Made by a program: the position numbers and the translations under genes. Source: Acidihalobacter ferrooxydans (lineage in GTDB: Bacteria; Pseudomonadota; Gammaproteobacteria; DSM-5130; Acidihalobacteraceae). Taken from it: a DNA stretch of 64,000 bases. Positions 41,616 to 48,446 of this stretch are shown here, one piece after another. Under the pieces are notes generated by a model. That model had not been told where the DNA came from, ran no database searches, and was given only the letters and a program-made list of their open reading frames with translations. The stretch lies in assembly GCF_001975725.1 (NCBI RefSeq), contig NZ_CP019434.1, positions 186,001 through 250,000 of the forward strand, read 5' to 3'. Position 1 is the first letter of the stretch. The number at the start of each line of letters is the position of its first letter.

Positions 41616-42497
41616 CTACAGGCCGAACAGGCTCAGGTCGAGCCGGCCGTCGCGTATCGGCGGACACCAGTAATAGGCGCCGGTCCGTGGCCGGGTGAAG
41701 CGGAACAAGCCGTCTGCGATGCCATCCTCTGCGCCGGACATGCGGTGCAAGGAGGCTTCGAAGGCATCCAGCGTGTGTCCGAAGGCCACGAACATGAAGC
41801 CACCCGCGTCGCCTTCGCTCCAGGGCATCGAGCGCCGCAGCATGAACGCTTCCGGCTCGAAGCTCTCCTGCGCGGTGCGTTTGACGTGCGCCGATGGCGG
41901 GGCGTCATCGAGTTCCTCGTTGTCGCTGTAACGACGGCCGATCATGTCGTCGCGTTCGACGCGGCTGTAGGCTTCGAGCTGATCGAAGTCGTGCTCCCAG
42001 AGTTGTACGGCGACGAAACTCGAACCGGCCAGTCCGGGCACGGTGTCGTCCGCCAGCGCGACGGTGCGCGCGTGGTCGCCTTGCGGATTTTCCGTGCCAT
42101 CGATGTAGCCGCTCAGATCGCGGCCCTCCGCGTATTTGTACCCGTCCACGGACTGGGTCAGGCGGAAGGCGTCGGCGAGCGCCTCGACGATGCTGCGGCT
42201 GTAGTGGAAAATCCGTCCGCGATCCTCGCCACGGATCCAGCACCACAGGGCGGCCGGCGTCGAGGGGATGTCGAAGCCGTCACACGCTTGCGGCGGCAGC
42301 ACTCTGAGTCCGGGGATGTCGGCACCCAGCGCGCGTGCAAGGGAGGGGCCGATGCCGAGTACGGCGCGTTCACCATCGACGATGTCGCGCAGCGCCAGCA
42401 GGCTGTCGCGCACGGCCTCGGGCGCAGCGAGTTCGAAAGTCAGATAACGGGCCTGCTCGGGCAGCGGGGCGAGAATTCCAGTCTGTTCGAGATTCAT
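41616..42497 (-). CDS. DyP-type haem peroxidase
   Basis: A 293-residue dye-decolourising peroxidase. The catalytic aspartate is in the GxxDG motif GYIDGTENPQGDHA. The proximal haem histidine is in VQLWEHDFDQLEAYSRVERDDMIGR, and the distal arginine in AHVKRTA. No signal peptide, so it is probably cytoplasmic or encapsulin cargo; no encapsulin gene is in the window. The start is the ATG at 42495-42497, where homology begins; the extension to 42647 is rejected. Confidence 0.93.
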   Translation of the reverse strand: MNLEQTGILAPLPEQARYLTFELAAPEAVRDSLLALRDIVDGERAVLGIGPSLARALGADIPGLRVLPPQACDGFDIPSTPAALWCWIRGEDRGRIFHYSRSIVEALADAFRLTQSVDGYKYAEGRDLSGYIDGTENPQGDHARTVALADDTVPGLAGSSFVAVQLWEHDFDQLEAYSRVERDDMIGRRYSDNEELDDAPPSAHVKRTAQESFEPEAFMLRRSMPWSEGDAGGFMFVAFGHTLDAFEASLHRMSGAEDGIADGLFRFTRPRTGAYYWCPPIRDGRLDLSLFGL

Positions 42498-42735
42498 AAG
42501 TTGTTTGCTCTTGTCAGGTCGGGGTGAGGGTTGCATCCTGTCGCTCAGCATAACGCCTATGCCGATGCGATCAACCCGCTGGTTATAGTCGACTGGCGTT
42601 TGCCGGATCGGTTGAACCATGGCACAGAGCCGTCGCATCCGGATCAAGTGGGGTGGCGGTTGCGCTGAGGTGAATCCAGGAAGCCGGCAAGGGCCGCTCG
42701 TCTGATAGAAGATTCGGGTTCATGGAGGGAGAGAG

Positions 42736-43470
42736 ATGCGGAAGAAGAACGGGAGGGCGAAATCGCCCTGGTTGCGAGGTCTGCTCGGCGCCCTGGCGCT
42801 GACCGTGCTGGCGGGCTGCGCAAGCCAGCCTCCGACTGTGGCGACATCGGCGCAGCGCCTGCCGCCCGCGCCGAAATTGCCGGTACAGGGGGCAACCGCG
42901 TATCACGTGGTGCGGGCCGATTCGCAGCTTCGCGTGCTGGTCTACCGGGCGGGCCCGCTGGCCGCGTTCGGCCATAATCATGTCATTACCACCACCGATA
43001 TTCAGGGCACGGTCTATGTGCAGCCCCGGCTCGATCTGTCCGGCTTCGATTTGCGCATACCACTGAAGAGTTTCGTGATCGATATTCCGGCGCAGCGGGT
43101 GCAGGAGGGGCCGGGTTTCGGCGGGCAGCCGAGCCGGGCGGATCGTGCCGGCACGCGCAAGCATATGCTCGGGCCCGTGCTCGATGTTGCGCGGTATCCG
43201 GTGATGACGCTGCGTTCGCTGGGCATGGTCGGCCCCCCTTGGTATCCGCGGGTTTCCGTGCGCGTGACACTGCATGGCGTCAGTCACGATTTTGTCGTTC
43301 CGACGGCGGTCTTTCATGCCGGTGCCGGACGGCTTGTCGTGACTGGCGGTTTGGCGCTGAAGCAAAGCGATTTCGGCATCAAGCCGTTCACTATCTTCAA
43401 TGGCGCACTGAGCGTGCGCAACCGCATGGACGTGAGCTTCCATCTCGTGCTGGCGCCGAAGGCGCGATAG
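42736..43470 (+). CDS. YceI-like lipoprotein
   Basis: A 244-residue protein with a signal ending in the lipobox LAGC (cysteine 28) and a YceI-type lipocalin-like domain: YHVVRADSQLRVLVYRAG, a FGHNHVI segment, DLRIPLKSFVIDIPAQR, ISVRVTLHGVSHDFVVP-like strands and ALKQSDFGIKPFTIFNGALSVRNRMDVSF. YceI proteins bind polyisoprenoid or amphiphilic molecules in the periplasm. The ATG follows GGAGGGAGAG. Confidence 0.88.
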   Translation: MRKKNGRAKSPWLRGLLGALALTVLAGCASQPPTVATSAQRLPPAPKLPVQGATAYHVVRADSQLRVLVYRAGPLAAFGHNHVITTTDIQGTVYVQPRLDLSGFDLRIPLKSFVIDIPAQRVQEGPGFGGQPSRADRAGTRKHMLGPVLDVARYPVMTLRSLGMVGPPWYPRVSVRVTLHGVSHDFVVPTAVFHAGAGRLVVTGGLALKQSDFGIKPFTIFNGALSVRNRMDVSFHLVLAPKAR

Positions 43471-43525
43471 CGAAGCGCAGTCCTCGGGTCGGTTCGATGC
43501 GCGCACGTTGCCGCAATCGCGCGGT

Positions 43526-43591
43526 TGTAAACGAGTGCCGGTATCGCGCCTGATATGGGTTTCAGAAGAGACAACGAAGGGGCGGCGAATG
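43526..43591 (+). repeat. Family B element, fragment
   Basis: GAGTGCCGGTATCGCGCC matches the inner left block of the copy at 33969-34125, followed by GGTTTCAGAAGAGACAACGAAGGGGCGGCG. Both termini and the right half are missing. It lies between the YceI and dsbB genes. Confidence 0.5.
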
Positions 43592-43669
43592 CAGTCCTGG
43601 CCGGGTGGGGTTCGCGTGTGGCCGCTGCTGGGGTACGCTGCGCGCTGTTGGTATGGAGGAAGCAGGCAG

Positions 43670-44113
43670 ATGCGATTTTTGAACGGACGCCACCTGGGGG
43701 TGCTCGGCGTGGTGACGACGCTGGCGGCGCTTGCGGCGGCGCTGTGGTGGCAATACCACGATGGCCTTGAGCCGTGCTCGCTGTGCTGGGTGCAGCGTGG
43801 CGAAGTTGTCTTGCTGCTGGTCGGTTTCGCACTGCACTGGCGCTGGCAGCGGCTCGGCGGTGGTCTGGCGCTGCTGGCCGCGGTGGCGGGGCTGGTCACG
43901 GCGCTGCTGCAGTTGGACGAGGTGCAAAATGGCGCTGCGGCGGCGCTCAATGTGTGCACGATCACCGCCTCCGGGCTGCCTTCCTGCGCGGTGGCCGGCG
44001 CACATCGCATCCTCGGTATCCGCCTGGTCGACTGGTCGCTCGCCGGTTTTGTGTTCTGGCTGCTGCTGGCGCTGGCCGCGCTGCCCTGGCGGGCGCGTGG
44101 AGCGGCGGCTTAG
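43670..44113 (+). CDS. dsbB: Disulfide bond formation protein B
   Basis: A 147-residue inner-membrane protein with four hydrophobic spans that reoxidises DsbA and passes electrons to quinone. The first cysteine pair is C36/C39 in EPCSLCWVQR, the second C95 and C106 in NVCTITASGLPSCA. The ATG has GGAGGA ten bases upstream. The stop overlaps that of the convergent dioxygenase gene. Confidence 0.93.
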   Translation: MRFLNGRHLGVLGVVTTLAALAAALWWQYHDGLEPCSLCWVQRGEVVLLLVGFALHWRWQRLGGGLALLAAVAGLVTALLQLDEVQNGAAAALNVCTITASGLPSCAVAGAHRILGIRLVDWSLAGFVFWLLLALAALPWRARGAAA

Positions 44114-44931
44114 CCGAACCGGAAGCCCGACAGCGCCTTGCCCATCAGCCGGTCTGAGTAGACGCGCTCGCCGCTGTCGTTGGCGGCCGCGCCTGCCGCC
44201 ACCATCAGGGGCAGCAGGTGTTCTTCGCGGGGATGGCTGGCGCTGGCGCCGGGTGCGTTGCGCCAGTCGGTCAGGGCGCGGTCACGCGCCGGTGCTGCTG
44301 CGGTCACGGCATCGGTGAGCCAGGTATCGAAAGCACTGGCCTGTGCATCGCTGGTGCCGTCATCGCTGAACAGCGTGCGCAAATTGTGAAAACTCATGCC
44401 GCTACCGACGATCAGCACGCCCGCCTCACGCAGGGGCACCAGAGCCCGGCCGATGGCCAGATGCGCGGCCGGATCAAGGCCGCGTTGCAGTGACATCGCC
44501 ACGATGGGCACGTCCGCCTCCGGGAAGATCAGTTTGAACGGCACGAACACCCCATGGTCGAGGCCTCGCTCGGCGTCCTGATCCGAGGCAATGCCTGCGG
44601 CAGTCAGCAACTCGCGCACCTGCGCCGCCAGCGCCGGCGAGCCGACCGCCGGATAGGTGAGGTGGTAGGTCTGCTCGGGAAAGCCGTAGTAGTCGAACAG
44701 CAAGTCGGGTTGCGCTGCCGTGCTGACCGTCGGACGTGGGGCTTCCCAGTGCGCGGAGATTACCAGTACGGCCGTCGGTGGGGCGGCCAGTGACGGACCG
44801 ATGCCGCGCAGGTAAGCCGCCATGTGGTCCCAGAGATCGGCGGGCATGCCGGGCGGCACATCCATGAAAAAGCACGGGCCGCCGCCGTGGGGAATGTAGA
44901 GAGTGGGCATGCGCGCAGCGGTTGAAATCAT
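44110..44931 (-). CDS. DODA-type extradiol dioxygenase (YgiD/LigB family)
   Basis: A 273-residue metalloenzyme. The metal histidines are in LYIPHGGGPCFF, VISAHWEAP and GLDHGVFVPFKLIFPEADVPIVAMSLQ, followed by the SGMSFHNLR catalytic histidine. E. coli YgiD and plant DOPA 4,5-dioxygenases are the named relatives; the natural substrate is unknown. Start at the ATG of MISTAARMP. Upstream lie about 160 bases without a gene, then a half A repeat. Confidence 0.9.
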   Translation of the reverse strand: MISTAARMPTLYIPHGGGPCFFMDVPPGMPADLWDHMAAYLRGIGPSLAAPPTAVLVISAHWEAPRPTVSTAAQPDLLFDYYGFPEQTYHLTYPAVGSPALAAQVRELLTAAGIASDQDAERGLDHGVFVPFKLIFPEADVPIVAMSLQRGLDPAAHLAIGRALVPLREAGVLIVGSGMSFHNLRTLFSDDGTSDAQASAFDTWLTDAVTAAAPARDRALTDWRNAPGASASHPREEHLLPLMVAAGAAANDSGERVYSDRLMGKALSGFRFG

Positions 44932-45091
44932 GGTGAGCGTTCCTCGCTGGAGATATTGTCTACAGTATCGCTCGGTGCGCAGCGGCGAACGGCGAATTTT
45001 TTTGAGGTCGTCGTTCATGAATTCTGACGGGTCGAGCCAATCGTGGCGGGATTGGTTGCGACCGGGGCCTGGTCCGTCGGGTGATGCGAGT

Positions 45092-45321: not shown

Positions 45322-46305
45322 CTACTTGGTGGCCGGTTTGCTGGGATCACCCGAAGGGTACTTCGCATACCAATCCCGCCAGATGACTTTGTAGACCGGG
45401 ATCTTGTAAGGGATCCGGTTTAGACCGGGAATGAATGGCAGGAAGATGAGTGTCCCCAGCATGGCGGCGAAGATCAGGAATGCCACTAAATCAGCATTGG
45501 GCAAATTACCTATGGCCGGTATCTGATACAGCAAGGTATATGGCCATAGCCACCAAGCCGCGGGATAAGGCCCCGCCATGTGCGACATACCCCAGTTCCC
45601 GCCAGGCTCGTCGAAATGATTCGCGACGGTGTTCATTATATTGCCGCCGAGGTAGAGAAAAGCCCGCGTATAGTCTGTGTTGTAGGGGGCTAATTTCGGG
45701 TTTGTGTTGACCGTCAAGGCAGCCTCTAACAATCCAGCGCGAGCGAACTTCAACATGCCGTCCATTAGCACCTGAACCGGGCCGTAATCACCATTTGGCA
45801 GGATTACTTGCCCGTTCTGCACCTTCGCCTTGCCGAGCGCAGCAGTATAAGCTTGGCTCCAAGCCATCTGCTGCTTGGCGCTGGCCTGCTGGTAGGTTTT
45901 CAGTGCCGTCGCCACGGCTGGATTCAGATCCGCGATCTGCTGCAAGGGCTGCATGACCAAATCCACCTTGGCATTAAGCGGGAACATGACTCCCACCCAA
46001 CAGGCCGGACAGAAGGGACCGATACGCTGCGCATTGGCGTTGTCATGCGTGTAGGGCGGTCCATATGTCTGTAGGCCGCTCGTCCCATCGAAATAGGTTA
46101 CCGTCCGGTTCAGGAAGGCGATTGGCGCTTTGGTCGCTACCTCCTTGATCGTCAGAGGCCAGTAGTTCTTTCCTGGGAAGCCCCAGAATGCGGCAAGAAT
46201 CAGCACTATGATCGCAATAGTGCTGAAGACAATCAGTCCTTCGCGCACCATGTCGTAGGGCTTCATCGGAATGCCACGCAAATTTTTATCCGAAGTGATA
46301 CTCAT
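45322..46305 (-). CDS. Membrane subunit of cytochrome b6-like complex (unrecognised family, 327 residues)
   Basis: One span near the N-terminus (about 23-43), about 200 residues of probably extracytoplasmic sequence containing a CPAC pair (C99, C102) in IGPFCPACWVGVMFP, then a C-terminal membrane part (AWWLWPYTLLYQIP and VAFLIFAAMLGTLIFLPFIPGLNRIPYKIPVYKVIW). The end loosely resembles cytochrome b C-terminal/subunit IV helices, but there is no PEWY Qo motif and no CXXCH haem c site. It is the last gene of an operon with the cytochrome b and 69-residue genes. The GGGAG ribosome site is good. Lower GC than surrounding genes. Function inferred only from context. Confidence 0.7.
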   Translation of the reverse strand: MSITSDKNLRGIPMKPYDMVREGLIVFSTIAIIVLILAAFWGFPGKNYWPLTIKEVATKAPIAFLNRTVTYFDGTSGLQTYGPPYTHDNANAQRIGPFCPACWVGVMFPLNAKVDLVMQPLQQIADLNPAVATALKTYQQASAKQQMAWSQAYTAALGKAKVQNGQVILPNGDYGPVQVLMDGMLKFARAGLLEAALTVNTNPKLAPYNTDYTRAFLYLGGNIMNTVANHFDEPGGNWGMSHMAGPYPAAWWLWPYTLLYQIPAIGNLPNADLVAFLIFAAMLGTLIFLPFIPGLNRIPYKIPVYKVIWRDWYAKYPSGDPSKPATK

Positions 46306-46317
46306 GATGATCTCCCG

Positions 46318-46926
46318 TTATTTTTCGTTCTCGTCTTTGCCTTCATTGACGATCGGGCGCACCGGACTTTCACTGCGTACGAACGTCAAATGTGCCGCTA
46401 CGAGCAACACAATCAAAGCGGCGAAGAACACCACATGCAAAGTCAATACCGTGGTGTAGTTCAGCCAGTTCATCCAAGACAGACCAATAGCGGCGAACGC
46501 GTCCTTGCCTTGCTGCGAATTCCATTGCGCGTCCCAATTGGCCTGCAGCAGGGTGCCGCTGATACCAGAAAAAATGGTGATCGCATAAATCGCCCAGCCG
46601 TTCATCCAGGTCCGTTGACGACCATCACGCCAAGCTGCCTTGAAGAACTTGAAGGTGAAATGCAGTGTAATCGCCACATAAAACACTTCGACGGACCAGA
46701 AATGCACAGCGTTGACGAACGCGCCCACCTTGGTGAAATGCCACCAATCGGGCCCGAAAAAAACCAGAATGATGCCGGAGATAAAAATCACCGCAAGTGA
46801 TGACAATGTCGCCGTGCCGAAAAAATAACCGAATGAGTTGACATATTCAGGCATTTTTGTGGGCAACGCGTCTTCCAGCGTCATATACTTGCTGATCACC
46901 TTCTGAAGAGCTTTGTCGATGTTCAT
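46318..46926 (-). CDS. Cytochrome b N-terminal domain (b6-type, di-haem)
   Basis: A 202-residue four-helix membrane protein. The haem ligands are H75 and H89 (HX13H, in NAVHFWSVEVFYVAITLHF) and H164 and H179 (HX14H, in LTLHVVFFAALIVLLVAAHL); HX14H is the cytochrome b6 spacing. The PW of the usual LPW segment is replaced (GTLLQANWDAQW). It ends after the fourth helix, as in b6, so a subunit IV equivalent is expected; the 327-residue product is the candidate. It should transfer electrons between quinone and a partner across the inner membrane. AGGAGG precedes the start, and the stop lies 12 bases before the next gene. Confidence 0.88.
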   Translation of the reverse strand: MNIDKALQKVISKYMTLEDALPTKMPEYVNSFGYFFGTATLSSLAVIFISGIILVFFGPDWWHFTKVGAFVNAVHFWSVEVFYVAITLHFTFKFFKAAWRDGRQRTWMNGWAIYAITIFSGISGTLLQANWDAQWNSQQGKDAFAAIGLSWMNWLNYTTVLTLHVVFFAALIVLLVAAHLTFVRSESPVRPIVNEGKDENEK

Positions 46927-46929
46927 CGA

Positions 46930-47139
46930 TTACTCCTCCTTATTTTTAGAGTGTTGATATTGGGCCCGTTCATCAGCATCCATTTCCATCCACTCGGGAA
47001 TGCGCGCATAAACCCCGATGCAGAAAATGATGAGGACTGCGGCCCACATTGCAATATTGGCCCAGACCCAATTAACGATCCCAAAGCTGATAAAAGATGC
47101 CGCCGGTGCATGCATAAGTTGCAAGGATTCAAGTCCCAT
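46930..47139 (-). CDS. Small membrane subunit (69 residues) of the cytochrome b operon
   Basis: A single hydrophobic span (about 17-44, IVNWVWANIAMWAAVLIIFCIGVY) followed by a charged tail (IPEWMEMDADERAQYQHSKNKEE). First gene of the operon, with AAGGAGGAG before the ATG; its stop is three bases before the next start. The size and position recall small accessory subunits of cytochrome complexes. No family recognised. Confidence 0.75.
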   Translation of the reverse strand: MGLESLQLMHAPAASFISFGIVNWVWANIAMWAAVLIIFCIGVYARIPEWMEMDADERAQYQHSKNKEE

Positions 47140-47400: not shown

Positions 47401-48446
47401 ATGAATGCAGAAGCGATGAATTTGCTGCAATGGCAGGATGTTTTTGTGCGGAGGAGGCCTGCGCGGAAGGCTTGAAGCAACAGCGATGGCCCAATGGCTT
47501 TCAGAGCCCGAGATGTTGCCAAGATCAGGGTCAGTGGGTGGCTACCTGCAAGATCCGCCCATGTGGACGCTGTCGATATCAGGCGTCGGTGACCGCCGGC
47601 ACCCTCCTTTACTCGACCCATTCAGCTCTGGTGCAGTCGTTTCTGGCTGCCTATCTGATCGCCTGCGACAAGGGCGGAATATCGGCTCTGCGCTTGTCCA
47701 AACTGATCGGCGTTTCCTGGTTCACCGCGCATCGCATGCTGCGCCACGCCGACCGAGATAGTATTTATCGCCTCGGTGGCTTGGTGGAGGTGGACGACGC
47801 GTTCGTCGGTGGAAGAAGGTCTGGAGAGTGTGGTCAGGGCGCGGAGGGAAAGATGCCGGTTCTGACAGCCGACGAAAGTCGTGGCAAGAAATCGGGTTTT
47901 ATCGCTATGGAGACGACCTCTTCGGTGTCTGGTGAAAATATCCGCCAGTTCGTGAAACGCCATCTGCTCCCGCAGCAATCAACACACACGGATGGCCTCG
48001 TAGCCCTGCCGGTTCTGGGGCGAGACGCAGCACCATGAAGGCCGTGTGAAGCCCGCCGAGTTGGTGGATGAATGGCTACCCTGGGTTATACATAGCTATT
48101 GGGAATCTAAAAGCCTATTTGCGGGGCATTTTTCACGGAGTTGCGGGGAAAATCACCAGGAGTACCTGACCCGGGTATTTCACAACTACCACCGATCTCA
48201 GGGGACTCGTGATTCCACGAGGGGTATTTCCTCGGTCGGTCGTAATCATCACTACGCCACCCCTTAGGAAATCCCCTTGTGAAATCAATATCCGGTGCGA
48301 TATCAGCAAAAATGTTTGAAACATTCGGACTGAACGAGTTCGTCTACCGCTTCAGCCGGCGATTTTGGGAGCCCGAGTGACAGATATGCCTGCTCAATAT
48401 GTGCATGGACACTACGCCTGTCCGCCTGTTGGTTGAAAATGGCTAG
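47401..48446 (+). pseudogene. IS1595-family transposase, frameshifted and split by a B element
   Basis: The N-terminus NLLQWQDVF at 47416 loses frame at a run of T near 47440 and resumes as EEACAEGLKQQRWPNGF. The zinc-ribbon-like part and ISXO2-like catalytic region follow (SKLIGVSWFTAHRMLRHA, GLVEVDDAFVGGRR). Frame is lost again near 48020-48060, then another frame gives WLPW and IAIGNLKAYLRGIFHGVAGK. A family B element (48171-48328) interrupts it, after which LNEFVYRFSRRFWEPE continues before more stops. The whole is a dead copy beside the cytochrome b operon. Confidence 0.82.
48169..48330 (-). mobile_element. Family B element inserted in the transposase gene, with CTGA duplication
   Basis: The ends read CCGGGTATTTCA (48171-48182) and TGAAACATTCGG (48317-48328). 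CTGA occurs on both sides, and removing the element with one CTGA restores a transposase frame (...GTACCTGAACGAGTTC). This is direct evidence of insertion. The orientation matches the copy at 11497-11654. Confidence 0.85.

Follow-up and report, generated by a model that had tools for sequence, protein, structure and literature searches.

The Q cycle is usually regarded as inseparable from a cytochrome b acting together with a Rieske protein. The described systems closest to the locus considered here are the PetB/PetD pair of the cytochrome b6f complex and the split cytochrome b of bc-type complexes, in which a b6-like four-helix subunit with two heme pairs is followed by a separate downstream gene whose product opens with helix E, and which also have a one-helix small subunit. 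A small split cytochrome b, ExtP/ExtQ, also occurs in the Geobacter ext cluster, which contains the Rieske protein ExtO and multiheme cytochromes c (PMC5877670). Two further systems enter the comparison, namely the bc1 complex of the host organism, whose cytochrome b has a homologous N-domain, and the DsbB-type thiol:quinone oxidoreductases, which resemble the complex proposed below in being membrane proteins with a periplasmic CXXC pair and a proposed link to quinone.

The locus consists of three adjacent genes, hereafter the trio, at positions 47139-45322 on the minus strand of the window, i.e., the whole 64-kb stretch of DNA that was analyzed (C1:186001-250000 of a closed 3.45-Mb genome). 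The host is a salt-tolerant, acid-loving bacterium of the Acidihalobacter type. The trio has the features of PetB/PetD listed above, but it differs from them in that genes for a Rieske protein and for cytochrome f/c1 are missing, as are PxWY, LPWGQM, helix G, and the propionate arginines, and in that an insert of ∼200 residues precedes the position of the Qo motif. Among curated NCBIfam models, ExtP (NF040969) is the best match of the b6-like protein, with 37.6 bits against a cut-off of 290 that is not reached, while ExtQ, at 16.8 kDa, is too small for an insert of this kind. Unlike the trio, from which it is separate and diverged, the bc1 complex of the host has its own Rieske protein, a c1-like gene, and an APWY motif; with the DsbB type there is no sequence or family relation, and in the trio the electrons would be carried by b hemes. 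By the features tested, the trio is assigned to the cytochrome b superfamily and outside the Rieske/cytochrome b complexes, and the open-access literature yielded no published description of it, nor of any b6/subunit IV pair that lacks a Rieske protein.

Organization and distribution of the trio

Re-reading of the open reading frames returned products of 69, 202, and 327 amino acids, as the preliminary description had reported, and their boundaries are collected in Table 1 along with those of two shorter features. Each start is preceded by a Shine-Dalgarno-like AGGAGG/GGGAG, and the gene order, from the small protein to the b6-like protein and then to the 327-aa protein, is kept in all five distinct trios, with the reading frames intact in every one (5/5). 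The 69-aa protein has one predicted transmembrane helix, at residues ∼25-43, and a conserved C-terminal motif, YAR(I/M)PE(W/F)MEMD.

Table 1. Positions of the trio and associated features in the window
Feature	Position	Strand	Basis or remark
FNR/ANR-like box TTGATATGGGTCAA	47241..47254		115 bp upstream of the start of the 69-aa gene
69-aa small membrane subunit	46930..47139	-	ORF; homologue in five of five trios
202-aa cytochrome b6-like subunit	46318..46926	-	Profile match and four heme histidines
327-aa subunit-IV-like protein, probably remodeled	45322..46305	-	Helix E comparison, conservation, hydropathy
Codons of C99-P-A-C102-W103 (CXXC pair)	45997..46011	-	ORF reading and conservation

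A second, diverged trio lies in the same genome at C1:1299546 (b6-like protein 76% identical), a second Acidihalobacter genome (G151) holds two copies, and two Acidithiobacillus genomes, one of them that of Acidithiobacillus sulfurivorans RW2, hold one each, i.e., 2 of the 17 genomes of that genus. The five distinct trios referred to throughout are the two of the window genome, the two of the second Acidihalobacter, and one Acidithiobacillus type. Protein or profile searches of 369 genomes of the class, 398 of the phylum, and 5 of the order, sets that overlap, returned no further trios; a scan of 84,980 species genomes detects close relatives only, and distant relatives may exist in other phyla. 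Two subtypes can be recognized, alpha (the window copy and L009 of the second Acidihalobacter) and beta (L007 and L008), and the Acidithiobacillus copies are closer to alpha than to beta.

Identities of the trio proteins across copies range from 65 to 84%, and dN amounts to ∼0.09-0.24 and dS to 1.7-2.3 for the pairs in which dS could be estimated; because dN is far below dS, the trios are under strong purifying selection. The GC content of the trio is 52%, against 62% for the window, and an ORF that looks by eye like a transposase lies just upstream, at 47430-48038, which together suggest that the trio was acquired by horizontal transfer. A viral or plasmid origin was considered and rejected, as no relative of the trio was present in viral contigs or plasmids, and libraries of defense and phage proteins gave no match to it.

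The b6-like protein and the 327-aa protein

The 202-aa protein matches Pfam Cytochrom_B_N_2 (PF13631) with 39 bits against a cut-off of 27, and in HHalign it pairs over its full length, at E = 4e-9, with the cytochromes b of related genomes (32 sequences). Its matches among PDB profiles are QcrB, cytochrome b, and b6, and the top Foldseek match of its model, which is of modest confidence (pLDDT 59), is cytochrome b6 (probability 0.99, E 0.075). The four heme-ligand histidines of the preliminary description, HX13H (75/89) and HX14H (164/179), were found again and are invariant in the five copies. At the level of its sequence, the protein is shown to be a cytochrome b N-domain with histidines at the positions of hemes bL and bH. 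The HX14H spacing was also considered as a sign of b6f ancestry and rejected, since the same pattern occurs in 30 of the 32 gammaproteobacterial cytochromes b.

Other hallmarks are gone: LPWGQM, found in 29/32 ordinary cytochromes b, is in 0/5 of the b6-like subunits, and the arginine positions of GWxxR and HxxRG, occupied in 30/32 and 18/32 of the ordinary proteins, respectively, are occupied in none of the trio copies. The loss of these heme-propionate arginines could mean that heme binding is altered or absent. Their loss on the bL side would fit a redox or quinone sensor, an assembly factor, or another noncatalytic relic, in which the cytochrome b fold is kept for structure or signaling, and so would the location of the beta copies among regulators (CysB and a histidine kinase, joined in G151 by a sigma-54 response regulator). 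Such a role is nonetheless improbable in our view, given that the four heme histidines are retained, under strong purifying selection, in five of five trios, and that the alpha and Acidithiobacillus copies are without those regulatory neighbors.

The 327-aa protein has no Pfam or NCBIfam match. When its N-terminal stretch, KNLRGIPMKPYDMVREGLIVF, is set against the beginning of helix E in cytochrome b, PLDGIPFHPYYSVKDIVGVGVF, the alignment scores 31.0, which was reached by none of 100 column permutations preserving hydrophobicity (mean 14.0, sd 2.9, maximum 21.4), and both helix E and the G-x-P-x-x-P-Y segment that precedes it, a feature of PF00032, are present. The C-terminal part is collinear with the ef-loop and helix F, a match that is weak taken alone (7 of 100 permuted controls were as good); in this alignment AAWWLWPYTLLYQIP stands opposite PxWYFTPFYAILRAVP, and it is plausible that the C-terminal half corresponds to these elements. 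Hydropathy predicts two transmembrane helices only, helix E at ∼16-41 and a putative helix F at ∼271-291, and helix G is absent. Because the N-terminus is that of helix E and the C-terminus is compatible with the ef-loop and helix F, the protein is most likely a heavily remodeled subunit IV with an insert of ∼200 residues and no helix G.

A PxWY-type motif, also allowing A at the first position, is present in 32/32 ordinary cytochromes b and in 0/5 of the 327-aa proteins, which read (A/G)AWW where the Qo motif would probably stand. The ordinary cytochrome b of the host (L036) itself has APWY there, and the other related cytochromes b in the comparison read P-(V/L/A/E)-W-(Y/F). None of the five 327-aa proteins contains CXXCH or the Rieske pair C-x-H...C-x-x-H, so that the absences noted in the preliminary description hold in every copy, with (A/G)AWW as the degenerate counterpart of the missing motif. 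No copy retains the ordinary Qo elements, which supports that description. Its suggestion that the 327-aa protein replaces subunit IV is refined by the helix E result, in that the replacement is not simply an unrelated protein.

By the standard topology of cytochrome b, the insert (∼42-248) would be periplasmic. The CPAC pair that had drawn attention to this protein was confirmed: C99 and C102 are its sole cysteines and are invariant as C-x-x-C, and H230 and H242 of the insert are invariant too. Of the checks that the preliminary description had proposed, profile comparison revealed the kinship of helix E, and the AlphaFold model, run with three sequences, reached a pLDDT of 41, which permits no statement on the fold of the insert, nor on a metal site made up of C99, C102, H230, and H242. 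Since Pfam, NCBIfam, and PDB profiles assign the insert to no known family or fold, a redox role for its CXXC is a guess. Two leads were discarded: the Foldseek search with this model, meaningless given the confidence of the latter, and an origin of the insert from PufC, prompted by a weak PDB profile match (E = 0.33), for which HHalign against PF02276 sequences gave scores equaled by 44/100 and 11/100 permuted controls, and whose CXXCH heme sites are absent from the insert.

Rieske proteins and ordinary cytochromes b of the hosts

A Rieske gene is absent from all five trio loci, as a survey along the lines of the preliminary description established, and the 69-aa and 202-aa sequences, as read, and the 327-aa sequences contain no CXXCH of the kind expected in a c1/f subunit with covalent c-type heme. 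Elsewhere in the window genome there is an ordinary bc1 operon with Rieske, cytochrome b, and c1-like genes (L036, C1 ∼965-968 kb), and two further bc1-type Rieske genes, unlinked to it, exceed the TIGR01416 cut-off (L031 at C1:1514576 and L033 at C1:872344), the second of which reads CTF...CPCC instead of the usual cluster ligands. The second Acidihalobacter also has two orphan Rieske genes above this cut-off (L028 and L030, on contigs C47 and C7), and no ordinary cytochrome b was found in its assembly. No cytochrome b neighbors any of these four orphan genes in the loci that were fetched.

The two trio-bearing Acidithiobacillus genomes, one of which is a single 3.4-Mb contig, hold neither a detectable bc1-type Rieske nor any other PF13631 protein. 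Each encodes a single Rieske-domain protein, judged by eye to be a NirD-like protein or a NifU-like fusion, and the NirD-like protein adjoins nitrite-reductase-like genes. For Acidithiobacillus, petI/petII have been reported from the iron/sulfur-oxidizing clade alone, and the loss of bc1 in sulfur oxidizers has been discussed (PMC8528912). Because the trio persists where a bc1-type Rieske is undetectable, it does not require one. In support of the preliminary description, it can be regarded as a distinct, conserved, and probably quinone-linked module that can exist in genomes where neither a bc1-type Rieske nor an ordinary cytochrome b is detectable; the statement that there is no Rieske applies to the operon and to the two Acidithiobacillus genomes, but not to the window genome, with its bc1 operon and unlinked Rieske genes.

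These orphan genes raise the question of a modified Rieske/cytochrome b complex, in which the trio would be the docking partner of an unlinked Rieske protein and would retain, in its AAWW region, a working, altered Qo site. Both Acidihalobacter genomes have two orphan Rieske proteins to offer, and the second has them where no ordinary cytochrome b was found. We consider this arrangement decidedly unlikely, however, because the trio-bearing Acidithiobacillus genomes have no such protein, neither of the two Qo-forming segments is preserved in any trio copy beyond a degenerate form, and one of the orphans of the window genome has lost its cluster ligands.

Gene neighborhood and a possible electron path

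The box upstream of the window copy (Table 1), which we take to be FNR/ANR-like from the consensus of the FNR family, has a counterpart in the alpha trio of the second Acidihalobacter, where a perfect FNR-type palindrome, TTGATCTAGATCAA, is located at -126, and the DNA around the two boxes is otherwise dissimilar between the two species. The chance of such a box, allowing up to one mismatch, within 260 bp of this composition is ∼0.02 per copy; a caveat is that in the 64-kb window, matches to the FNR-like TTGATNNNNATCAA with one mismatch number 6 against 0.9 expected (e.g., 26229, 40821, and 48659), and are thus commoner than chance. An FNR-type regulator probably switches the alpha copies at low oxygen. 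Upstream of both Acidithiobacillus trios (L004 and L044), by ∼80-40 bp, there is an inverted repeat, TTGAATCA(A/T)ATA...TATTTGATTCAA, a possible operator of another regulator.

The beta trios adjoin a gene for a CysB-like regulator (401 bits against a cut-off of 436), which in L008 is divergent from the trio at a distance of 155 bp, and the surroundings of L008 also include a rhodanese and a sigma-54 two-component system. This CysB is the only close match to the regulator in these genomes, and its position near the trio may be due to chance, because in the sister genus CysB adjoins apparent assimilatory sulfate-reduction genes. Taken together, CysB, the rhodanese, and the FNR-like box hint at control by sulfur and oxygen.

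Just downstream of both beta trios (L007:7855-8376 and L008:8109-8636) there are members of a family of 173-175 aa, 49% identical to each other, with no informative Pfam or NCBIfam match and absent beside the alpha and Acidithiobacillus trios. A fourth common subunit was considered and rejected, as the 173-aa and 124-aa proteins that follow the other copies are mutually unrelated and absent at the window copy. The neighbors of the latter at 41616-45018 are Dyp-type peroxidase, YceI-like lipoprotein (by eye), DsbB-like, and DOPA-dioxygenase-like proteins, none of them common to the other trio loci. Beside the trio copies there is no soluble redox partner that is conserved among them.

Our reading of the trio, for which we judge the chances to be even, is that it descends from cytochrome b6/subunit IV and works as a Rieske-free, nonbifurcating transmembrane quinone oxidoreductase. 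With the homology, losses, conservation, and distribution of the trio as observed, we infer complex formation, heme binding, a quinone site, a direction of electron flow, and a substrate. The b6-like bundle would be joined by three helices, E and F from the 327-aa protein and one from the 69-aa protein, the last of these perhaps taking the place of the missing helix G. The hemes bH and bL would connect a quinone site at the cytoplasmic face with a second, periplasmic site that either belongs to the insert, with its invariant CXXC, or docks on it, giving one electron path without bifurcation or Q cycle, which is the simplest scheme because the heme-ligand pairs are kept, the Qo site is lost, and no Rieske is needed. 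For direction and donor together we favor, tentatively, a periplasmic thiol or reduced-sulfur compound delivering electrons inward to quinone; with its oxidation outside coupled to quinone reduction inside, energy would be conserved.

Electrons might also flow outward, from quinol to bH, bL, and the insert, in a reductase that passes them to a periplasmic acceptor, such as a metal or a disulfide, at low oxygen. Delivery of electrons to periplasmic acceptors is common among b-type membrane cytochromes, the hosts inhabit metal- and sulfur-rich acid, and the FNR-like box precedes both alpha copies; yet no partner reductase or c-type cytochrome lies beside any trio copy, and outward transfer through the hemes would cost proton-motive force, which makes this direction unlikely.

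Returning to the Rieske-free quinone oxidoreductase, its fuller evolutionary form is a possibility that we hold with some reserve, namely that a single-path enzyme, with its own periplasmic redox domain replacing the Rieske protein, evolved away from bifurcation, spread among acidophilic sulfur oxidizers, and is viable without bc1. A conserved cytochrome b module with neither Rieske protein nor Qo site would reveal what the cytochrome b wire accomplishes by itself and provide a natural test of the features that enable bifurcation, and the trio may represent an uncharacterized point of entry to, or exit from, the respiratory chain of biomining bacteria.
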